From Prochlorococcus sp. AG-409-P01 (GTDB taxonomy: Bacteria; Cyanobacteriota; Cyanobacteriia; PCC-6307; Cyanobiaceae), in assembly GCA_003215335.1 (NCBI GenBank), contig QCKM01000001.1:62001-126000 (forward strand): 64,000 nucleotides of DNA. Reading direction: 5' to 3'. The notes beneath the pieces were generated by a model. That model ran no database searches and was not told the origin of the DNA. It worked only from the letters and a program-made list of their open reading frames with translations. Position numbers and translations under genes: made by a program. Below are positions 52,599 through 64,000 of this stretch, in pieces. How positions within the stretch are numbered: position 1 is the stretch's first letter; every line of letters starts with the position of its first letter.

Positions 52599-53741
52599 TT
52601 AATCACAATCCACCATAGGCAGCGTCAATAGTTTGCAATAAGTCTCGTAGGTAAGTTTATTTACCTTATCTACTCCAAATTCTTTTGTGACTTTCTCTCT
52701 TGCCGCCGACCCGAACTTTCTTGCTAGCTCAGGTTGATTTAGAAGTAGCTGAATAGCAAGCGCAAGGGCCTCCGAGTCTTGTGGTGGAACAAGTAATCCA
52801 CTAATGCCATGATCAACCACTTCTCGACAGCCGGGTACATCTGTAGTGATTATTGCCTTTTCCATAGCAGCTGCTTCTATAAGAGCTTTTGATAGTCCCT
52901 CTCTCCATGAAGGTAAAACAACGATATCGATTTCTGCGTAAAGAGCAGGCATATTTGCAATTTGACCTAAAAGCTCTACACAGTTTTGGTTTTTTAGTTG
53001 TTCTAATTCGAGTGGGCTTAATGAACTGCGATTACCACTATCTAGTTCGCCAGCAATCAAAAGTTTAAATCTCAGGCCTTGAGAGTTTAATTTTTTAATG
53101 GCTTTGAGTAATTCTGTGAGACCTTTTTCGCGGATTAGTCGAGATGGGAAAAGAAGTAGAGGCGGATTTTGATATTGATTTGCAGAAACAGGTGGTTGGA
53201 AGAGATTTAAATCAACTCCAGAGCTGCCAATAACACTTGTTTGATGTGAAGGGACAAGGCCTAATGAAATTAATAGCTCTTGATCTGCTGCATTTTGAAA
53301 GATAACGGTTGAACGTTTTGCAGAAAAAGCTGCTTTGTAAGGCAACTTGACGATATAGCGCAATATTCTCGAGCGTTTTCGCTCACCAAGGAACAAATGC
53401 CCTAAGCCTGTTACTGCATTGATTACATGTTTTACATCTGTTGCTTTGGCGGCCAACGTCCCATATAGACAAGCTTTGAGAGTGAAGTGATGGACCAAAT
53501 CTGGTTTCAATCTTTTGTAATGCCTTAAAAGATCAATTTGTGCTTTTAATTCAAGCCAAGGATTGATTGATCTTCTACTTACATTCCATCTGTGGACAAT
53601 AAAGCCCTCTTTCTCTAAGGAGGCAGTATGTTTATCCTCTGGGGCAATTATTTGAATATCAAGCCCTTTTGAGCTTAGATACCGTAATAGCGGAAGTCTA
53701 AAATTGTAGATATACCATGAGGTATTCGCCACTAACAGCAC
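52599..53741 (-). CDS. Glycosyltransferase family 4 (group 1)
   Basis: GT-B glycosyltransferase of 380 residues that probably adds a sugar to a lipid-linked glycan. The N-domain starts LLVANTSWYIYNFRLPLL; VHHFTLKACLYG lies in the middle. The C-domain has FPSRLIREKGLTELL, LPSWREGLSKALIEAAAMEKAIITTDVPGCREVV with the Glu-x7-Glu motif. GTG start. It resembles PglA/CapM-type enzymes. Donor and acceptor are unknown. Confidence 0.9.
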   Translation of the reverse strand: MLLVANTSWYIYNFRLPLLRYLSSKGLDIQIIAPEDKHTASLEKEGFIVHRWNVSRRSINPWLELKAQIDLLRHYKRLKPDLVHHFTLKACLYGTLAAKATDVKHVINAVTGLGHLFLGERKRSRILRYIVKLPYKAAFSAKRSTVIFQNAADQELLISLGLVPSHQTSVIGSSGVDLNLFQPPVSANQYQNPPLLLFPSRLIREKGLTELLKAIKKLNSQGLRFKLLIAGELDSGNRSSLSPLELEQLKNQNCVELLGQIANMPALYAEIDIVVLPSWREGLSKALIEAAAMEKAIITTDVPGCREVVDHGISGLLVPPQDSEALALAIQLLLNQPELARKFGSAAREKVTKEFGVDKVNKLTYETYCKLLTLPMVDCD

Positions 53742-53996
53742 TCTTTGCTGTTTCCTCTTGTTGGCTAAGGAAGCTTCTTTGCTCTTATGAATTCTTTTCA
53801 GGGTTGAGTGACGATTCTCATAATTTTAAATTGTAATGGCAACTAAGGTTTCGTTGGTTTCAAAATAGAAACTTGTTTTTCAGGGAGTCAACTCTTTTTA
53901 TGGAGACTCAGGTTGAGATGATAATAATTGGATTCGATTACGTTTGATTTGCCAACTAATTTTCTTTTAGCATTGTAGCTTCTGAAATAAATATTA
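53742..53996. other. Intergenic gap inside the polysaccharide region
   Basis: About 255 AT-rich nt between the EpsG-like gene and the GT4 gene. I see no gene or RNA. It probably holds the promoter of the GT4 gene and the 3' end of the operon upstream of it. Base composition shifts to AT here. Confidence 0.4.
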
Positions 53997-55037
53997 TTAA
54001 CTTATTAATATATTCGTATAGGGTAACCAGCATTTGGCATGATTACTTGCAAATAGCCACACAGCTTGAATAAGACAAGCCAATATCACAACACCAAAAG
54101 TTAACACTCTTGGATCCACGTCAAAAATTCTAAACTCAGGGACACGAGAGCCAGCATAAATTTGAATTGGGATTGCATAGAGTGCAAGTCGGTCGACAAC
54201 AGTTGTACTTGGCAGTATGAATAGACCTATAAGGCATGCTACGGAATAAAGAGCAATTGAAAACCATACTCTTCCTTCTTGATCCCGCATTTTTAAGCGA
54301 TAACCAAAAATCAATAAAGCAATAGCTGGCAATGTATTCATTGCCACTCGAATGGTTGCCCCCTCCGAGCTCATTTTTTGCATAAGGTATCCAAATATAA
54401 ATATGCCTATCCGATCCCATAGAAATATTCTTGCGAGAAGAATAGAGAAAAATATTGTTAAAATAGTTCTAATTAGTCTTATTTTTAGAGTCCTTCCTGG
54501 AATCGCTGGCAGCAAAAATACTAATGTGATGACACTTGTTTGATGAAAAGAAGCGGCAACAGCAACCCAACATAGGAAATGCCTTAAATGTCCTCGCTCT
54601 AATGCAAGAAAGCCTGGCATCAATAATCCAATCGCGACTGATTGCCTTGTGTACCCCATCGCAACTACTATTACTAAATAGGGTATTGCCATAGTTAGTG
54701 CTAGCCATGGCCTTCTTTGCGCAGCACAAAATACAACTAAACCAAAGGCAAAAATTCCCGCCGAAATAAAATTAACTCCATAAACATCAGCATTAATTCC
54801 AGAAGAAAATGATTGAATTATGCTGTAACCGGGATCCCTACTGAGATCAAGTTCCATAGGTTTCCCATTAAAGAATCTTGCATACATATCCCAATCACAC
54901 CCAACTTCATGACGCAATCCAATGATTAAGGTAAGGATTGACCACAATGTAAATTTGAGACTGTTAGTCCATCTTTTAGTTGGAGCTTCAAGTGCCCTAT
55001 AAGCTGTACTTAGAAATAACAACCAATAAGCAATCAT
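53997..55037 (-). CDS. EpsG family membrane protein (polysaccharide polymerase)
   Basis: Integral membrane protein of 346 residues with about nine hydrophobic helices. The EpsG-family signature residues are visible: GLRHEVGCDWDMY, GYTRQSVAIGLL and SFHQTSVITL. EpsG proteins polymerise repeat units of exopolysaccharide or O antigen. ATG start, 4 nt after asnB on the same strand. It is the last gene of the hisH-hisF-amidotransferase-asnB operon. Confidence 0.87.
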   Translation of the reverse strand: MIAYWLLFLSTAYRALEAPTKRWTNSLKFTLWSILTLIIGLRHEVGCDWDMYARFFNGKPMELDLSRDPGYSIIQSFSSGINADVYGVNFISAGIFAFGLVVFCAAQRRPWLALTMAIPYLVIVVAMGYTRQSVAIGLLMPGFLALERGHLRHFLCWVAVAASFHQTSVITLVFLLPAIPGRTLKIRLIRTILTIFFSILLARIFLWDRIGIFIFGYLMQKMSSEGATIRVAMNTLPAIALLIFGYRLKMRDQEGRVWFSIALYSVACLIGLFILPSTTVVDRLALYAIPIQIYAGSRVPEFRIFDVDPRVLTFGVVILACLIQAVWLFASNHAKCWLPYTNILIS

Positions 55038-55041
55038 TGAT

Positions 55042-57012
55042 TTATCCCCATTGTTCTAGCCAGGCTTGCCACATAAGTATGTTCCATAATTTAGTCGTAT
55101 GATCGTAGCGGCCAGAGAGATGCTCTTCCCAGACTTTCGTTGCTAAAATTGGATTGATAAATCCTTCATCGGAAAGCTTATCAGGATTTAAAAGCTCGCT
55201 GGCCCAATTTCGCAAGGGTCCTCTTAACCAACTCCCAATAGGCATAGAAAATCCTGACTTTGGCCTATTAATTAGCTCATTAGGGATATGCTTTTCAAGA
55301 ATTTTTCTCAAAATCCATTTGCTTTGATTATTGCGTATCTTCATTTCCAGAGGGACCCTCCAAGCAGCTCTTGCTACTCGATGATCTAAGAAAGGAAGAC
55401 GAGTTTCAAGGCTTACTGCCATGGCTGCTCGGTCCAGTTTTACCAGGATATCTTCGGGCAGGTATCCAATAGAATCCATCGCCATCATTCTCTCAGTCTG
55501 ACTTATTCTTAGTGTGCCAGGTATGTTTTTTTCTATATAGTCTTCATTTTGAATAATTGTATTTTGGCCAAGACCTTTTTGTGAAATTATGTTCCCTCCC
55601 CAGTTTTCTTTAAGAAGCGATTTGTAGAGATCATTTTGACTATCTATTTCTTTAACGCGCACTAAAAGCTTATTCACTTTGTAGTGAAGTTGGTTGATAG
55701 ACATCAATTTCCCAAGATATCTCCAAAGTAATTCTGGGACTCCATATATTAAATCAGATGACATATCCCTAACTCCTTTGGGAATAAAACCAAGCCTTTT
55801 CCAAATTTTAGGCACCCATATGTACCTGTTATATCCACCAAAAAGCTCATCACCACCATCACCACTTAGCACCACATTTAGACCTGAGTTTCGAGCTGAT
55901 CTACATACAAGATGAGTTGGCAATTGAGAGGAGTCTGCAAATGGCTCACAGTAAATGTTGGCGAGGTTTGGTATTAGACGAATGGCATCTTTACTGGTTA
56001 GAGTTTCTTCAAAGTGCTCAGTTCCTAAGTGTTTTGCTATTGCTCTCGCATGGGTAGCTTCATTAAATTCGGCTTCTTCAAAACCAATAGTAAATGTTTT
56101 TAACTTTCTGGAAATATTGGATTGTGATAGAGCTGCTATTAAAGATGAATCGATTCCTCCAGATAGAAAGCAACCAACAGAAACATCTGCTTCCAATTGA
56201 TCTTTGACAGATTTAGATAGAGCATTTTCTACGTTTGAAATCGCTTCAAATTCACTGTTAAAGATAGCCTTGCAACTATCTTCAATTAGGTCATTAAGTT
56301 TCCACCATGCTCTACTACATGGTTTAGGTTTTGATGGGTCTAAGGGTAGTTTAATGGTCACTAAATGGCCAACAGGTAATTTTTCTATGCCGGTTATTAT
56401 TGAGCGAGGTGCGGCTATATAGGAAAAGCTCATTAGTTGAGAAAGGGAATCTCTATCAATAGGATTATTAAAACCTGGGTATCTTCGAATTGATGATAGT
56501 TCCGATCCAAATAGAAGGGCTATTTCACAGCCACTACTGCATATCCCCCAATAAAGTGGTTTTTCTCCAAAACGATCTCTTACTAGATGGAGTACTTTTT
56601 CTTTTCTATCATATAGAGAAAATGCAAACATCCCTACACTTTTCTGCAAAGCTAATTCAAGACCCCAATTTTCTATCGCCGCAAGTAAAGTCTCTGTGTC
56701 AGAAGAACCTCTCCAATTTTGTTTGATATTTAAGCTTTCAAGTTCTTTCCTTATATCAGTGTGGTTATAGATTTCTCCATTAAAGACAATTACAAAGCGC
56801 CCTTTTGTTGATTGCATAGGCTGATGCCCTGCAGAACTTAAGTCGACAATTGCAAGACGCTTATGAGCTAGAGCTATTCCTATTTCTTCATCATGCCAAA
56901 CACCAGAGTCATCTGGACCTCGATAGGAGATAGCTTCCACCATGTGAGAAGCTATCTTGATCAGATTCTGATTGGATGTCGGCCTAGTGATAAGGCCTGC
57001 AAAACCACACAT
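55042..57012 (-). CDS. asnB: Asparagine synthetase, glutamine-hydrolysing type
   Basis: The 656-residue product starts MCGFAGLI with the amidotransferase Cys2, has GFNGEIYNH-type sequence, and an ATP-PPi domain with SGGIDSSLIAAL and SGDGGDELFGGY. In polysaccharide loci these enzymes often amidate a sugar acid or an amino-acid branch rather than make free Asn. The location supports that role, but the sequence does not exclude general Asn supply. ATG start. Confidence 0.92.
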   Translation of the reverse strand: MCGFAGLITRPTSNQNLIKIASHMVEAISYRGPDDSGVWHDEEIGIALAHKRLAIVDLSSAGHQPMQSTKGRFVIVFNGEIYNHTDIRKELESLNIKQNWRGSSDTETLLAAIENWGLELALQKSVGMFAFSLYDRKEKVLHLVRDRFGEKPLYWGICSSGCEIALLFGSELSSIRRYPGFNNPIDRDSLSQLMSFSYIAAPRSIITGIEKLPVGHLVTIKLPLDPSKPKPCSRAWWKLNDLIEDSCKAIFNSEFEAISNVENALSKSVKDQLEADVSVGCFLSGGIDSSLIAALSQSNISRKLKTFTIGFEEAEFNEATHARAIAKHLGTEHFEETLTSKDAIRLIPNLANIYCEPFADSSQLPTHLVCRSARNSGLNVVLSGDGGDELFGGYNRYIWVPKIWKRLGFIPKGVRDMSSDLIYGVPELLWRYLGKLMSINQLHYKVNKLLVRVKEIDSQNDLYKSLLKENWGGNIISQKGLGQNTIIQNEDYIEKNIPGTLRISQTERMMAMDSIGYLPEDILVKLDRAAMAVSLETRLPFLDHRVARAAWRVPLEMKIRNNQSKWILRKILEKHIPNELINRPKSGFSMPIGSWLRGPLRNWASELLNPDKLSDEGFINPILATKVWEEHLSGRYDHTTKLWNILMWQAWLEQWG

Positions 57013-57031
57013 TCACTCTTCTAACGGGTGA

Positions 57032-58189
57032 TTAAAAATTTGAGGCCTTAGGTCTTCTATTGATTAGACGATAGAAGTCATAAGCTAGTCCAAGTAAGTA
57101 CTGTCTATTTGGATAATCTGTATACCAAAGTGGAGGGAGATTCATAGCATAATCAATTTCCTCAAGAGTGTAATCAAGCTTTCGTGCTACAAAGGCAGAA
57201 TCCCTTTCCACATCAATATCTTCCCAAGGTTTTCTTTGCAGTTGATTTAATGCTTCTTGGCGACTGAGTGATCCTAAGCAAATATCGGCTGAAAGATAAC
57301 CACGCCTATAATCAACATTATGACGACGGGGCAGATAAATAAGTTGTGTGAATCTAGTAAAAGTTGACTCACAATGCTTCCCTCCATAGCTTTTCCAGTT
57401 GATTTCCTTAGACAAGACATCTCTTGCTGCTTCTTTATCATAAATAAATTTATTTAATGGATAAAGAGTTTTGATTTTGTTGATAAATCTAGACTTTATT
57501 TCTTGACGAAAACCAAATTTAATTTGTTTATAATCTCTAAGTGAAAGGCCTGATTTTTTAATCAGAGATTCTCCATAGAAACTATCTCGGGCGTTATATA
57601 ACCAAGCGGATGGCAGTATTCCCTCATTGGCAATGTTGCCACCACTCAAAATGGTCTGAATCCCATATTTTGATGCCACTTTATGAAGAACAGCTTGTAT
57701 GGCTATATCAGTTGGCATTTCAATATCTGGAACTCCAGAGTCAATAAAAGCTTTCTGAATTAGCTTGAATGAATTCCAATTAAGAACTTCTGCATGGTAA
57801 TCAATACCAGGAAGCTTGATTAAATTATAGATATTTTCAATAGCTATAGGCGTATCCCACCCGTTATCCATATGTAGAGCTAGAACTTTAAGGCCGTATT
57901 TACTTGCGAGAAGAGCCGTAAAAGAACTGTCAACACCACCACTGACACCTACAATTGCATCGTAATTAACTCCAGATGGCCGTGAGGATTTTATATTTTC
58001 AAAGAAATTAGATAAACTTGGTTCGGTATCAGAGTTATGAGCTGTTACCTTAATCCTAGTTTCAAGGAAATTAGTACAATGGTTACATAGCCCATCCTTG
58101 TCAAACCTAATAAATGGATCACTAGTGTCCATTACACACCTTCTGCAAATTCTGTATGGTGGTCTTTTTACTTTAGAAATTATTTTCAT
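57032..58189 (-). CDS. N-acetyl sugar amidotransferase (WbpG/PseA type)
   Basis: ATP-PPi-loop enzyme that converts an N-acetyl group of a nucleotide sugar to an amidino group using ammonia from HisH/HisF. The loop is VGVSGGVDSSFTALL. CxxC pairs at residues 15, 18, 35 and 38 form a zinc-like site, and GGKHCESTF is near the C-terminus. The frame runs to TTG 58204; I use ATG 58189, leaving a 17-nt overlap with hisF. About 385 residues, as in the family. Confidence 0.9.
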   Translation of the reverse strand: MKIISKVKRPPYRICRRCVMDTSDPFIRFDKDGLCNHCTNFLETRIKVTAHNSDTEPSLSNFFENIKSSRPSGVNYDAIVGVSGGVDSSFTALLASKYGLKVLALHMDNGWDTPIAIENIYNLIKLPGIDYHAEVLNWNSFKLIQKAFIDSGVPDIEMPTDIAIQAVLHKVASKYGIQTILSGGNIANEGILPSAWLYNARDSFYGESLIKKSGLSLRDYKQIKFGFRQEIKSRFINKIKTLYPLNKFIYDKEAARDVLSKEINWKSYGGKHCESTFTRFTQLIYLPRRHNVDYRRGYLSADICLGSLSRQEALNQLQRKPWEDIDVERDSAFVARKLDYTLEEIDYAMNLPPLWYTDYPNRQYLLGLAYDFYRLINRRPKASNF

Positions 58190-58973
58190 ATTCAAAAAAA
58201 TCAATTTCTTCTAGATAGGCTTTTAGCAGATTATTCATTTCAGTATAATTAATTAGTACATGAGAGCTATTAGGGGCATAACAAAAAAGACTTCCAGCAG
58301 ATACGCCTGATAGAAGTGTTTGATCTAAAAGTGATTTTATGTGTTTGAATTTCCCGCATCCTCCCAGAGCTACAATAGGTATTGATAGTATAGAGTTGAT
58401 TCTTGACATGACTTCTACATCATAACCTTTTTTAGTCCCATCTAGAGCTATATTATTTATAATAATCTCTCCTGCTCCAGCTTGCTCTACTGCAAGAGAT
58501 ATCTCCTCAAGCATGTATTTATAATTGTTATTAACTGAGCCTAGAGTTGCAATTAGGTTGCCATTGACATCTTTATCTATATTTATAATCACTGAGATTG
58601 TAGATGAACCAAATTTATTTACCGCTATCTCAAGAAATGCCAGATCTTTGTTTAGAACATTCCCAAGAACAACTTTTTCTACGCCAAGAGCAAGTATGTC
58701 TTGTATATCTTCAAGAGTTGATATGCCTCCACCTACCGATAGCGGAACAGTCGTGAAGTGGGCCAATGCGTGAACAAAGTTTTTTGGTATAGATCTTTTT
58801 GATTTTGACGCATCAATATCTAGTACTATGAGCTCATCGACTTCATATCCACTAAGGACATAAGCAGCATTTAATGGGTCGCCAATATAGTTTCTTCCCT
58901 TGAACTGTGTTGTTTGTGTGAGATGCAGGTTTTCGTCTATTAGTAAGGACGGAATAAGCCTTGGTTTTAACAT
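58173..58973 (-). CDS. HisF-like protein of surface-sugar synthesis (HisF2)
   Basis: TIM-barrel partner of HisH, 266 residues. GYEVDELIVLDIDASK, PLSVGGGIS and EVMSRINSI follow the HisF fold, but the start IPSLLID replaces the IPCLDV of true HisF, so the catalytic Asp11 is Leu11. The second Asp (in NIDKD, about 133) remains. This matches HisF proteins of O-antigen loci such as those with WbpG, where the barrel only channels ammonia. ATG start; 1 nt after hisH. Confidence 0.88.
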   Translation of the reverse strand: MLKPRLIPSLLIDENLHLTQTTQFKGRNYIGDPLNAAYVLSGYEVDELIVLDIDASKSKRSIPKNFVHALAHFTTVPLSVGGGISTLEDIQDILALGVEKVVLGNVLNKDLAFLEIAVNKFGSSTISVIINIDKDVNGNLIATLGSVNNNYKYMLEEISLAVEQAGAGEIIINNIALDGTKKGYDVEVMSRINSILSIPIVALGGCGKFKHIKSLLDQTLLSGVSAGSLFCYAPNSSHVLINYTEMNNLLKAYLEEIDFFEYENNF

Positions 58974-58974
58974 C

Positions 58975-59607
58975 TTATAATTCCAAAAAATTTCTAATCA
59001 GTTGTGTGCCTTGCCCTCTACTCTTCTCAGGGTGAAACTGAACTGCCTTAATGTTTTTGTATTCTAAGGATGCCACCCAAAATCTTTCGTGAGAGTAAAG
59101 TGAATAGGAGCAATCTAATTGATTTGTTGCCATGACTCCATACGCATTAGAATAATAAAATAGTTGATTTTCTTTGTGTATTCCATTAAGTAACAATGAA
59201 TTTCCTATGGACTTTTCTATGTTGTTCCAGCCCATATGTGGAACCTTATAAGCCTTCGTATTTGAGACCTTTATTCTTACCGCTTTTAAAGGTATTACAC
59301 CTAGCCCGGTGTCTTCACAAGCCTCTTCACTAGATTGACAAAGGAGATGAAAACCAAGACAAATACCCAGAGTAGGAAGTCCAGATTTGATAACATTAGA
59401 AAGTTCTCTAAACAAATTAGAACTCTTTAATTTATGTATAGCTGTATGAAAGTGACCTACACCCGGTAGTATCAATGCATCTGCAGAAACTAAATCTTTA
59501 GTGTTAGATGCGAGATAAAAATTAACCTCTATTTGCTTTAATGCAGCCTCTAGTGAGGCAAGGTTACCTGTACCGTAGTCTAAAATTGCAACTTTTTTTT
59601 TTGCCAA
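58975..59607 (-). CDS. HisH-like glutamine amidotransferase (surface-sugar type)
   Basis: Glutaminase subunit of 210 residues that supplies ammonia to the barrel partner. The nucleophile Cys is in LGICLGFHLLCQ, with PHMGWNN, and the catalytic His-x-Glu in AVQFHPEKSRGQG. ATG start. First gene of the operon that continues through HisF, the amidotransferase, AsnB and EpsG. It is probably not the histidine-pathway enzyme, since it is coupled to the altered HisF. Confidence 0.88.
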   Translation of the reverse strand: MAKKKVAILDYGTGNLASLEAALKQIEVNFYLASNTKDLVSADALILPGVGHFHTAIHKLKSSNLFRELSNVIKSGLPTLGICLGFHLLCQSSEEACEDTGLGVIPLKAVRIKVSNTKAYKVPHMGWNNIEKSIGNSLLLNGIHKENQLFYYSNAYGVMATNQLDCSYSLYSHERFWVASLEYKNIKAVQFHPEKSRGQGTQLIRNFLEL

Positions 59608-59660
59608 CTTTTTCTTGTTAGAATAAAAACCTTAATGGATACTAAGACATAACTCTAAGC

Positions 59661-61553
59661 CTATTTCGTTGATGTTAGATTTTTCACCATTTTTATCCAC
59701 ATTTCTTTGCCTTCAGATACCGTGAAGAAATTTTGATAATTGTTCTTATGAATGTTTATTTTTGATTGGATCGTTGAGATGTTATTTAGTCTAGCTGCTA
59801 GCTGCTCTGCATTGCAAATAAAATTGATCCCATCATCTTGTCTTAATGGACACATGTTTGGCATAGAAGAATCTAAGCAGACAATGAGATTGACTTTTGA
59901 GATTAGAGCCTCAACAACAGCTGTTGTTGAGTGCGAAATTATAATCACACTGTACTTTTGAAAAGCCTTCAAAAGATTAATATCTCTTGGTGCAATATCG
60001 ATTTGAAGATCATAACTTTGTATATTTCCCCCTGGATGCGGAAGAAGTTTTGGGATGAATTTCTTGTTGGTTAACCTCAGTGATTCTAAAACAATAGAAA
60101 CCATTCTGTTAGTAACATTGTTATCATAATCAGCAACAATAAGAATATTGTCTTCCTTGGACTTAATTATATCATCAGATAAATATTTTAGATGCTCATA
60201 CCTTGTCGTTTCTACATCATATTTAGTGGCATAATACATAGCGGAGTTTCGGATTGACTGCCTAATGAGATTACCCGAAATGCATATTCCATCTGCTTGA
60301 GGTCTATGACTCATATTGTTACTTTCTAATAGGTAATTAGAAACATGATACCTTAAATCCCAATATCTTATTGAGCTATGGGGATAGGCAACTATTTTAT
60401 TCGCCATTTTCCTTGACCATGCTTGAAGAAGTAAATACTCATTGACTTCACCCTCGTATAGATATAAACCTAATGACCTATTGTTATCAGAGCCTAAGGC
60501 TTCTTCGATTGCAAAGTAGTTTATTATCATCCGTAGAGCATGAGTATTTATTGCGGCAAAACTGAGCTCAGGTTTAATATAAGGCCAAATAAGATGTAAA
60601 TCTGATTCTCCATCTCCCAAATTAATTTCTTTGCAATTTAAGCCTTTTAATGAAAACCAAGATTCTATTGACTTTAATAATACCCTGACATCAATAAATG
60701 ATTCAATCAATACATGTACTACATGAGTCTCTTTATAGCAATTATTCGCTTTTCTGATGAAATCTGATGCTTCTCTAGGGCAAAGTGTATGGTCACCTAA
60801 ATCATATAAATATAACCAGCCAACTGATATTCTATTAATATGTAATTTCTCTGGTAAATTTCCTAAGAATCTGTTGCTATAGATCCTTGCAAGACTAGTC
60901 TTTATTGGATTTGTGAAATAAGAGAATATTATAAGATCAGTCTTTAAACTTCTCCACTTTGAACTCCCTATGCCTAACAACATTCTTCTTGTCCATAAAT
61001 ATTTTAGTAGTGAAAAAATTGATTTAGATCTACAGAGAATATTCTTTATCTTGATTTTTTGTGCTCTCAAATAATCAGCTTTTTCAGAGTCTATCTCATG
61101 ATTGAGGCCATGCTTATTTGCAATTTGTATTAGTGCCCTTTCGAGTAGCTTGTTAGATGTTTTGACTTTGAAATCGACTATATTTTTATATGACATATAG
61201 TTATCTAGCGCTAATAGTTTTAAGCAATCCACCTTTTCTTTATATCCCTGGCTGAACATACATTTCTCAGAAACTTTTGTTGACCACCACAGATTGAATG
61301 AGTTCGTTATTTTGAAATGTTCAAATAAACTTTTTTTATTTAGCTTCAGTGTTGGTATTTTGTCAATCGCTTCTAGATACCTATCTCTTATTTCGTCGGA
61401 ATACTTTTCCAGCTCATCCAAGATGTAAATTGATTCATCATTTGCAGATTTACTTCTTCCTTCCCAATGAACAACTTTTGTTTTTAGGCCATCACTTTTT
61501 GAGCTTGGCTTGTAATGAATATATATCTTGCTCACTTTATAGTTTTTCTCCAA
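59661..61553 (-). CDS. Large protein of unknown function in the polysaccharide region
   Basis: 630 residues, not confidently recognised. No long membrane segment and no signal peptide. Aromatic WWSTKV near 90, a positively charged helical stretch (about 165-205), then an apparent Rossmann-like C-terminal half: ILIVADYDNNVTNRM, PKLLPHPGGNIQSYDL, SVIISHSTTAVVEALISK and VNLIVCLDSSMPNMCPL. The late block resembles the nucleotide-binding half of CDP-glycerol or sialyl-type glycosyltransferases, and the general layout recalls the Leptospira LIC13510-type surface carbohydrate proteins. Both are guesses. ATG start; 53 nt upstream of hisH. Confidence 0.65.
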   Translation of the reverse strand: MEKNYKVSKIYIHYKPSSKSDGLKTKVVHWEGRSKSANDESIYILDELEKYSDEIRDRYLEAIDKIPTLKLNKKSLFEHFKITNSFNLWWSTKVSEKCMFSQGYKEKVDCLKLLALDNYMSYKNIVDFKVKTSNKLLERALIQIANKHGLNHEIDSEKADYLRAQKIKIKNILCRSKSIFSLLKYLWTRRMLLGIGSSKWRSLKTDLIIFSYFTNPIKTSLARIYSNRFLGNLPEKLHINRISVGWLYLYDLGDHTLCPREASDFIRKANNCYKETHVVHVLIESFIDVRVLLKSIESWFSLKGLNCKEINLGDGESDLHLIWPYIKPELSFAAINTHALRMIINYFAIEEALGSDNNRSLGLYLYEGEVNEYLLLQAWSRKMANKIVAYPHSSIRYWDLRYHVSNYLLESNNMSHRPQADGICISGNLIRQSIRNSAMYYATKYDVETTRYEHLKYLSDDIIKSKEDNILIVADYDNNVTNRMVSIVLESLRLTNKKFIPKLLPHPGGNIQSYDLQIDIAPRDINLLKAFQKYSVIIISHSTTAVVEALISKVNLIVCLDSSMPNMCPLRQDDGINFICNAEQLAARLNNISTIQSKINIHKNNYQNFFTVSEGKEMWIKMVKNLTSTK

Positions 61554-61841
61554 GCCTAAAAACCTCTCAAGTTACTATGATGTGCTTATTAATTGACTAT
61601 AACCTCAGTTTTTCAAATTAGTCCTATTATTTTATTTGATTTTAATTGCTTGACAAGCCCCATCCTTTGAATGACTTGCTGGCATCATTACTTGGTACAG
61701 AACTGAAGCTTTCTTATTTATATACCATGATATACTTGATATTAGGGTCAAGGATCAAAAGGTAGATTTATAGCTCTGAAGACATGCCTTTAAAGAACCT
61801 CCTTGCTCTACATCTATTGACTTAGGGGGGGGGGGCGACTG
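61554..61841. other. Divergent intergenic region of the GT2 gene, with an 11-G tract
   Basis: 288 AT-rich nt between the unknown 630-residue protein and the GT2 gene. It must hold both promoters. The only remarkable element is the G tract at 61825-61835. A short ORF (61784-61825) ends just before it. Confidence 0.5.
61825..61835 (+). repeat. Homopolymer of 11 G just before a glycosyltransferase start codon
   Basis: Eleven uninterrupted G in an AT-rich region, ending 6 nt before the ATG at 61842. Such tracts slip in replication and are classical phase-variation switches in surface-glycan genes of other bacteria. Here it lies in the leader rather than in the coding region: with any G number, an in-frame stop or lack of an upstream ATG/GTG/TTG prevents a longer protein. 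Slippage could alter ribosome access or the leader. Confidence 0.85.
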
Positions 61842-62777
61842 ATGAGATCTAGTGTGATAATTACTAACCACAACTATGAGAAATTTTTAGCATCTACTCT
61901 TGCTTCTTTATCTGCTTCTTCAAAGCCAGCCGACGAGATACTAATAGTTGATGATAAAGTAAGACCTTCAAAGCTTTTGTTAGACACTATTAGTAAGTTC
62001 AAACTTTTGAATATTAGACTTTTAACCTTACCTAACTCAGGTCAATTAGAAAAAATAGACTTTGCTTTTAATACTTCTGAAGGCCAAGTGATCTTTCTCC
62101 TTGATGCTGATGATGAGTTTACTCCATATCACATTGAATGCACTCTTAATCTCTTCTCAGAAAAACCTTCACCAGATTGTGTCATCTCAAACTTTACTAC
62201 TGTAGATATTGACTCCAACAAATGTTCTTCTGAATATAGTTCAAGCTTTTCTAATGGGAGGCCATTACCTGAAACTATGCCTGTAACATCCGGTCTTTTT
62301 GCACTCAGGTCTGAGCCAACTTCATGCTTAGCACTTAAGAGATCAACTTTAGAGAACATTTTCCCAGCTGATCATCTCCATGAAGACTGGATAATAGCTG
62401 CCGATGCTTACATTCATACAGCAATCAGACTAAGGTCTTCATCTATTCTTTATAGTCGGAACCCTTCTGTCTTATATAGGATACACAGCTCTAATTACTC
62501 GCTGGGAGATCACTATAATTCGTTAATTAATCAACAGCGTATGGCAGCAAGTTTTGAAAAGACTAGAAATTCTATCAATAAAGTATTAACGCATGATGCA
62601 TATGTTCTTATGTCATTAATACTTTTAGAGAGGCCTATTACACTAAAGGATTTTTACTACCAGATTATGTCAATCCTTAAATATTCAAATAATACACCTT
62701 TATTTTGGTTTACTATTATTCAATACATCATTAGAATTCCGCGAAACCTTTTTAATGTATTAAGATTATCTATGTAA
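61842..62777 (+). CDS. Glycosyltransferase family 2
   Basis: GT-A glycosyltransferase of 311 residues. SVIITNHNYEKFLASTLASL, EILIVDDK, and the metal motif LLDADDEF are seen. After about 230 the protein becomes hydrophobic in patches. ATG at 61842. It is the only rightward gene in the region 50-64 kb and thus has its own promoter. An 11-G tract precedes the start. Donor and acceptor are unknown. Confidence 0.88.
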   Translation: MRSSVIITNHNYEKFLASTLASLSASSKPADEILIVDDKVRPSKLLLDTISKFKLLNIRLLTLPNSGQLEKIDFAFNTSEGQVIFLLDADDEFTPYHIECTLNLFSEKPSPDCVISNFTTVDIDSNKCSSEYSSSFSNGRPLPETMPVTSGLFALRSEPTSCLALKRSTLENIFPADHLHEDWIIAADAYIHTAIRLRSSSILYSRNPSVLYRIHSSNYSLGDHYNSLINQQRMAASFEKTRNSINKVLTHDAYVLMSLILLERPITLKDFYYQIMSILKYSNNTPLFWFTIIQYIIRIPRNLFNVLRLSM

Positions 62778-62800
62778 TGGAAATCATTAAATAACACTTG

Positions 62801-63715
62801 TTAACCAGAATAAATTTCCTTGTAATACAGTAGGCACTCTTCGAGCCCAGTTCTGATTTTAACTTTCGGTATCCAGCATAGTTTCTCTTCTAGATCCCTG
62901 CTAGCTTCAGGTAATTGATCATACTCCCAATCACTTTCTGCTTTTGCCCCAAAAATAAGCACCTTCTCACTTGAGTTGGTCAATTCTCTTATTTGCTCAA
63001 TTATCCAACGTACCTGATAATTTTTTCCTGAGCGGACTACAAATTCATTAAAATTGCTATGATCCCAATTCAACATATCATGATATGTAATTAGCAATCT
63101 TATTAACGCTATGAAATCTGATATATGCAAGTAATCTCTTTTTTGCTTGCCTGAAGTAAACTCTAACTCTCCTTGTTTTTCAAGTAAACCCCTGAAGCAA
63201 TAACTTATAAGTGAATCTTCTTTATCATTTGGACCATATAAAGTAGTGATTAATAAATTTACAAATCTAATCCTATTATTTAAAAGCTTATTGTTGCAAC
63301 AATATCGTATTTCTTCGCTAAATAACTTTTTAGTTCTTGAATATAAACCACTGTCTATAGGCCTTAGAGTTGAAAGTTGAACAAATAATAGCTTTTGACC
63401 TATATCCTCGGCGGATTTAATGTATTTCAGAGGATTGCATACATTAACCATGTAAAATGCATGCCATGTATCGTCATCTTTACTTATTTGAATTGTTGAT
63501 GTATTTATGACTATGTCTGGACCAAAATCTTTTAATACATTATATGGATCTTCATAGTAGTCATAAACATTTTGACTAGTACTTTTAAGTGATTTGGGAT
63601 TTCTGGTTACTATTCCCGTTTGAATTGACATTGAATTGGCTAAAACTAATATTGCTTTTGCGACAAAGTTGGAAGCTCCAATGACTAATAATTTAGGCTT
63701 CTTGTCTTTTGTCAT
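62801..63715 (-). CDS. NAD-dependent epimerase/dehydratase-like SDR with a degenerate nucleotide motif
   Basis: Extended SDR of 304 residues. The nucleotide loop reads LLVIGASNFVAKAIL, where the usual GxxGxxG has lost its second and third Gly. The catalytic Tyr-x3-Lys is kept (GLYSRTKKL), together with QLSTLRP, and TLYGPND. A sugar epimerase, dehydratase or reductase of nucleotide sugars is likely. ATG start; overlaps the upstream oxidoreductase by 4 nt. It converges with the GT2 gene. Confidence 0.8.
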   Translation of the reverse strand: MTKDKKPKLLVIGASNFVAKAILVLANSMSIQTGIVTRNPKSLKSTSQNVYDYYEDPYNVLKDFGPDIVINTSTIQISKDDDTWHAFYMVNVCNPLKYIKSAEDIGQKLLFVQLSTLRPIDSGLYSRTKKLFSEEIRYCCNNKLLNNRIRFVNLLITTLYGPNDKEDSLISYCFRGLLEKQGELEFTSGKQKRDYLHISDFIALIRLLITYHDMLNWDHSNFNEFVVRSGKNYQVRWIIEQIRELTNSSEKVLIFGAKAESDWEYDQLPEASRDLEEKLCWIPKVKIRTGLEECLLYYKEIYSG

Positions 63716-64000
63716 GGTTTTAGTAGTGATTCATTTTTTTTCATATGAAATCCTACTGATAAGGCATCAATCGTATCCACCATGGCTTCTATATTCACAT
63801 CTTTAATGATTTCACCGTTCCCTGTATCAAGGTAATCACAAATCAGTTCAATAGCGACAGACATTTCATTTTCTTGAGACAGCTTTAATTCAGGTACATC
63901 TTCTTTAAGGATATATTCATTGTCATTATTTTTGACACAACTATCAAAAAATATCCTCTCCTCAAAATTTTCAATTCTCAATCTACATTGTTGAAACCAG
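63712..64000 (-). CDS. C-terminal part of a Gfo/Idh/MocA-type oxidoreductase (partial)
   Basis: The frame is open to the right edge, and begins inside a larger gene. About 95 residues are seen. AIELICDYLDTGNGEIIKDV and VEAM-like VNIEAMVDTIDAL are like the last helix of Gfo/Idh oxidoreductases, but no cofactor domain is in view, so the call rests on the tail only. The TTG at 63981 is not the real start, as coding continues upstream. The stop overlaps the SDR start (ATGA). Confidence 0.55.
   Translation of the reverse strand, partial: WFQQCRLRIENFEERIFFDSCVKNNDNEYILKEDVPELKLSQENEMSVAIELICDYLDTGNGEIIKDVNIEAMVDTIDALSVGFHMKKNESLLKP

Follow-up and report, generated by a model that had tools for sequence, protein, structure and literature searches.

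The window analysed here, i.e., the whole stretch of 64,000 nucleotides, carries a run of eleven G on its plus strand at 61825-61835 (GGGGGGGGGGG), which is followed by CGACTG and then by an ATG at 61842. This ATG opens a gene for a family 2 glycosyltransferase (GT2) of 311 amino acids. The protein matches Pfam Glycos_transf_2 at residues 4-153 (E=1.3e-17), and since profile position 1 falls on residue 4, the start is well placed and the G11 tract lies outside the reading frame. The original prediction had described an 11-G run in the leader, 6 nt before a glycosyltransferase ATG and with no upstream in-frame start at any tract length. This description was borne out. The tract occupies the ribosome-binding position and affects no reading frame, and with 7-15 G the GT2 frame read upstream meets a stop before any ATG, GTG or TTG. 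The genes and features around the tract are as follows.

57032..59607, minus strand: sugar-amidation trio, composed of a WbuX/WbpG-like N-acetyl sugar amidotransferase, a HisF2/WbuZ-like protein and a HisH-like protein
58975-59607, minus strand: the HisH-like sugar-amidation gene
59661..61553, minus strand: divergent neighbour of 630 amino acids, resembling the TIGR04326 surface-carbohydrate biosynthesis family with a score under the cut-off
61554..61841: intergenic region of 288 bp between the divergent genes
61785..61826, plus strand: possible 13-codon leucine-rich upstream ORF (MPLKNLLALHLLT), from frame translation only
61797..61835, plus strand: predicted hairpin, CCTCCTT-G-CTCTA arm with TAGGG-G-GGGGGGG
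61825..61835, plus strand: G11 mononucleotide tract in the GT2 leader, its 3' end 6 nt from the ATG
61842..62777, plus strand: GT2 gene, the lone rightward gene, with a Pfam match
62801-63715, convergent with GT2: NAD-dependent epimerase gene
L025:11596-12297, minus strand: second GT2 gene

The surroundings of GT2 are a surface-polysaccharide island. The sugar-amidation trio indicates that the locus makes a surface glycan, and the left side also carries genes for an asparagine-synthase-like amidotransferase and a GT4 glycosyltransferase. To the right of the epimerase there follow, all leftward, genes for an oxidoreductase, a nucleotidyltransferase-like protein, a NeuB-like synthase, the second GT2, an aminotransferase and an ABC transporter, the names of these right-hand genes being read from their sequences without a family search. 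The gene had been called the only rightward glycosyltransferase of the region, and indeed the other surface-sugar genes within 52599-64000 and in the next 10 kb are all on the minus strand. It had also been said that the stretch is AT-rich, which is right for the island (33% G+C over 59661-63715) and less so genome-wide (42.7% in a 464-kb genome sample). Another homopolymer of the island is an A10 run (T10 on the plus strand, 59593-59602), which lies within codons 2-5 of the HisH-like gene (LAKKKVAILDYG). A slip in this run would break the frame, which is a more classical on/off geometry than that of the G-tract; the run may merely encode lysines.

Long G/C runs and mismatch repair

The run statistics are based on the 464-kb sample of the 1.78-Mb genome. 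In this sample, G/C runs of length 5, 6, 7 and 8 occur 214, 44, 11 and 4 times, respectively, so that counts drop about fivefold per added base. By extrapolation from these lengths, 0.0034 runs of at least 11 are expected per window and 0.095 per genome, and dinucleotide shuffling of the window gave such a run in 2 of 100 shuffles (0.02 expected). Thus, the tract is very unlikely by chance, as had been stated. Rarity against composition is no proof of selection at G11, however, since slippage-prone repeats commonly show a heavy tail, and long G/C runs are commoner in this genome than simple composition predicts. Genome-wide, eight G/C runs of at least 9 were seen against 2.1 expected. A/T runs have no heavy tail and are slightly too rare at lengths of at least 9.

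The seven other G/C runs are 9-12 in length, and G11 is the second longest of all, behind one G12. Three of the seven, G12 included, are intergenic elsewhere than pyrH-frr. The runs assigned to genes or spacers are listed below.

pyrH-frr spacer: C10 (sense strand)
Coding sequence of a CDP-alcohol phosphatidyltransferase (PgsA): G9
Coding sequence of an HI0933-like flavoprotein: G10
G000:C5:90577-90585 (L021:4001-4009): C9, within the coding region of a conserved PMT-family glycosyltransferase with a DETPPL motif, the one glycan gene besides GT2 that has a long run
G000:C9:44262-44273 (L022:4001-4012): G12, the longest G-run, between genes for an RRM RNA-binding protein and an ABC transporter

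At the G12 locus, the other strand has an ORF with a long proline run, mirroring the glycine-rich tail of the RRM protein. The C9 of the PMT-family gene was considered as a second contingency candidate and rejected: 28 family homologues have the DETPPL motif, which is written in mixed codons, and because the codons of relatives differ, this C9 is not a conserved tract. When the eight G/C runs of at least 9 were checked, G11 alone was found where the ribosome would bind ahead of a surface gene, and the tracts are not concentrated in surface genes. Since most of the other long runs lie within housekeeping genes or close to them, the genome has no surface contingency set of the kind known from Campylobacter or Neisseria.

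Comparison with relatives covered both the gene and the arrangement. A DNA search for the GT2 locus in 149 relatives found none, apart from one chance-like match of 33 bp. Of 400 family genomes compared with the GT2 protein, all but its own (399) gave no hit at E<=1e-10; nor was it found among named genomes, and its best match in other cyanobacterial families has 34% identity. The genus has no other genome in the comparison, and with HisS sharing no more than 66% identity with named relatives, the organism can be assigned to the Prochlorococcus/Synechococcus/Cyanobium family and no further. The leader sequence was not found in viral contigs. The density of G/C runs of at least 9 is 4.5 per Mb in this genome and ranges from 0 to about 30 per Mb across the family. 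In 250 family genomes, a run of at least nine G is followed by ATG at 4-10 nt in 320 cases and at 24-30 nt in 276, a difference of 16% or about 1.8 standard deviations. The reversed pattern, used as a control, gave 98 near and 109 far. Since the counts exceed those of the reversed pattern about threefold both near and far, the excess points to ATG abundance and not to placement, and the idea that the family in general employs long G-runs for ribosome binding was rejected on these near and far counts. Most of 30 sampled family sites open only short frames, and by eye no surface-sugar gene was recognisable in nine further family cases whose ATG opens an ORF longer than 90 aa. With such weak placement enrichment and no surface-sugar enzymes recognisable by eye, the family as a whole has no such system.

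Canonical repair of slipped loops requires MutL. MutS1 was found in the genome (858 bits), and MutL was not detected in it (99.5% complete). Within the family, here Prochlorococcus/Synechococcus/Cyanobium, MutL was above the cut-off in 0 of 91 genomes (this genome and 90 relatives), with ten weak matches only, and it was above the cut-off in 56 of 58 cyanobacteria of other families. Published work records that P. marinus MED4 lacks MutL (PMC2921402), and the protein is also missing from several strains of P. marinus (PMC5101192). The absence known from these strains looks family-wide here. Since MutL was not detected, slippage is plausible at G11, and because repair of slipped loops needs this protein, long homopolymers should be unusually mutable across the lineage. 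The length of G11 is thus probably easily changed. The absence of MutL is the strongest support for length variation of this tract, and it applies equally to the other long runs of the genome.

Ribosome binding and the structure of the leader

The 16S rRNA 3' end of the genome is CACCTCCT / ...GGATCACCTCCT, and from the end GGATCACCTCCT it follows that the anti-Shine-Dalgarno sequence is intact. The G-tract is complementary to this end and stands 6 nt from the ATG, within the range of 5-9 nt expected of a Shine-Dalgarno site. The predicted duplex with the anti-Shine-Dalgarno sequence has -9.7 to -10.7 kcal/mol for 5-11 G, and AGGAGG in the same context has -10.6. It is therefore probable that G11 serves as, or contains, the ribosome-binding site of GT2. 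Slippage adds G distal to the ATG, so the core of the site should survive at any length of at least 5 G, and such good pairing with the ribosome could make the length irrelevant. A Shine-Dalgarno-like motif precedes 19% of 234 sampled starts of this genome, compared with 8% at control positions. Thus, Shine-Dalgarno sites are used sparingly, and the G-rich site may be dispensable for translation. G6 or longer stands before only 2 of the 234 starts.

The original prediction had proposed that a change of length acts on ribosome access or on promoter/leader geometry. The former is in keeping with the ribosome-binding position of the tract. No promoter straddles it, and for the leader structure a graded, statistically unremarkable effect is predicted. 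On the plus strand of 61554..61841, no sigma-70-like promoter was found before GT2, only a weak -10-like TATACT at 61731, and on the minus strand a sigma-70-like site lies at 61656-61629. Switching by promoter spacing was also tried: a -35-like TTGACT is present at 61817, shortly ahead of the tract, and the best -10 at 16-18 nt from it matches at 3/6 for 5-16 G, so that this candidate was rejected.

A C/U-rich arm of the leader, CCTCCTTGCTCTA, is predicted to pair with TAGGG-G-GGGGGGG and thereby to mask that portion of the tract to which the ribosome would bind. Opening the start region is predicted to cost 11.6 kcal/mol with 8 G, 14.7 with 11 G and 11.6 with 14 G. The maximum falls exactly at 11 G, and one-base steps amount to at most 1.8 kcal/mol, a profile that would mean tuning rather than switching. 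That the hairpin was selected was also considered and rejected: when the upstream sequence is shuffled, 8% of the shuffles reach an equal cost at 11 G, and 13 of 200 peak at 11. The fold energy of the leader has z = -1.1, and in predicted strength the hairpin does not exceed chance.

The possible upstream ORF MPLKNLLALHLLT spans the C/U-rich hairpin arm, and the last base of its TAG stop is also the first G of the tract. Translation of this putative ORF could open the hairpin; the ORF itself may be due to chance.

Explanations of the tract

We favour, with a probability of roughly 0.45, the explanation that G11 is a slippage-grown and probably length-variable ribosome-binding tract, which would adjust GT2 translation by degrees and no more than modestly. 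The tract has most likely grown from a shorter G-rich site through replication slippage. In a lineage without detectable MutL, such slippage should be poorly corrected, so that the length probably varies within populations, and changes of length should then tune GT2 translation by degrees via the leader structure. The heavy G/C tail (8 against 2.1), which is absent from A/T runs, is as expected from slippage growth. In addition, the 3' end of the tract is fixed 6 nt from the ATG and neither frame nor promoter spacing changes with length, which argues for graded tuning and against on/off control. A neutral repeat, grown by slippage or arisen by chance, without regulatory effect and standing before GT2 by coincidence, is a somewhat less likely explanation. 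Long runs of 9-12 occur at seven other sites, mostly in unrelated places such as PgsA, the flavoprotein and the frr/pyrH spacing; run density varies widely in the family with the genome well inside the range; placement before ATG differs by only 16% over 250 genomes; and the C9 of the PMT-family gene is not conserved, relatives encoding DETPPL with other codons. Against neutrality, eleven G that overlap a ribosome-binding site at ideal spacing are unlikely to have zero effect on translation, and G11 is among the two longest runs of the genome. An artefact of assembly or sequencing, such as two-colour poly-G calls or a miscounted homopolymer, is hardly to be expected. The genome is a draft of 31 contigs and homopolymer lengths in general are prone to error, but all eight tracts are contig-internal, at least 1.3 kb from the ends, with both strands represented, and three of them lie within intact reading frames at residues expected from the family (Gly-rich or Pro-Pro motifs).

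The phase-variable switch that had been proposed is not supported as such: the predicted effects are graded, no promoter straddles the tract, the other long G/C runs of the genome are not comparably placed, and placement in the family is hardly enriched. A dedicated contingency locus, with the tract under selection for switching GT2 and varying a phage receptor, is unlikely in our estimate. GT2 is a surface-glycan gene, its tract has a length also found in known poly-G contingency loci, and the lineage has no detectable MutL. In Nostoc, phage-resistance mutations recur in glycosyltransferase genes (PMC12507012), which makes a glycan role in phage entry a reasonable background. However, tract length has no effect on frame or promoter spacing, its predicted effect is graded, the genome lacks a set of similarly arranged surface genes, and none of the nine further family cases with longer ORFs could be recognised by eye as a surface-sugar gene. 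To call G11 an incidental, hypermutable tract of the leader is thus more apt than to call it a dedicated contingency locus. It is very improbable that a trans-acting small RNA with a C/U-rich loop represses GT2 through the G-tract in a length-dependent manner. A glycosyltransferase is controlled in this way by RepG at tlpB-hp0102 of H. pylori (PMC8295292), but no Rfam family match was obtained within 61400-62100, and the C/U-rich arm of the leader could itself pair in cis.

A bolder form of graded control, which we consider unlikely, is that the hypermutable G-tract as ribosome-binding site and the C/U-rich arm in cis together make a rheostat of GT2, giving graded bet-hedging of a phage receptor in cells without MutL repair. 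Pairing of the arm is predicted to be strongest at exactly the 11 G observed. If true, no leader tract of this sort would have been shown in the family before, as far as the searched literature tells. If the favoured length-variable tract does vary and tune GT2, it would provide picocyanobacteria with fast, heritable and reversible variation of surface sugars, and perhaps of phage entry, in addition to the slow turnover known for islands of surface genes. Moreover, with no MutL detectable across the lineage, unusual mutability may extend to every long G-run of this family, which is very abundant.

Comparison with known systems

G11 is like other G-rich Shine-Dalgarno sites in its complementarity to the anti-Shine-Dalgarno sequence and in its 6-nt spacing, but eleven G far exceeds what such a site needs. 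In Campylobacter and Helicobacter, the glycosyltransferase genes known as poly-G contingency loci have tracts of similar length and also encode surface-glycan enzymes. The tracts there are internal to the reading frame and switch it on and off, whereas the GT2 tract is outside the frame. In porA and opc of Neisseria, poly-G tracts are promoter-spacer switches. They lie upstream of the coding region as G11 does, but here no -35/-10 pair flanks the tract. A literature search of open papers found no direct precedent for homopolymer phase variation in cyanobacteria.

The closest likeness in place and gene type is to the RepG system of H. pylori, of which we do not claim the GT2 locus to be a member. 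The tlpB-hp0102 leader has a repeat of 12 G, through which the small RNA RepG exerts graded control of a glycosyltransferase, with repression strongest at 9-12 G (PMC8295292). Variation of repeat length among strains, the small RNA and length-dependent expression have all been demonstrated in that case (PMC8295292). Both leaders carry a G-repeat of about 12 and serve a surface-glycan glycosyltransferase (co-transcribed as hp0102 in H. pylori), and G11 falls within the range of about 6-16 G for a repeat in the leader of a glycan gene (PMC8295292). At tlpB-hp0102 the repeat length acts by degrees and outside the reading frame. The tract of GT2 differs in that it abuts the ribosome-binding position of the glycosyltransferase itself and can pair, by prediction, with a C/U-rich arm of its own leader.
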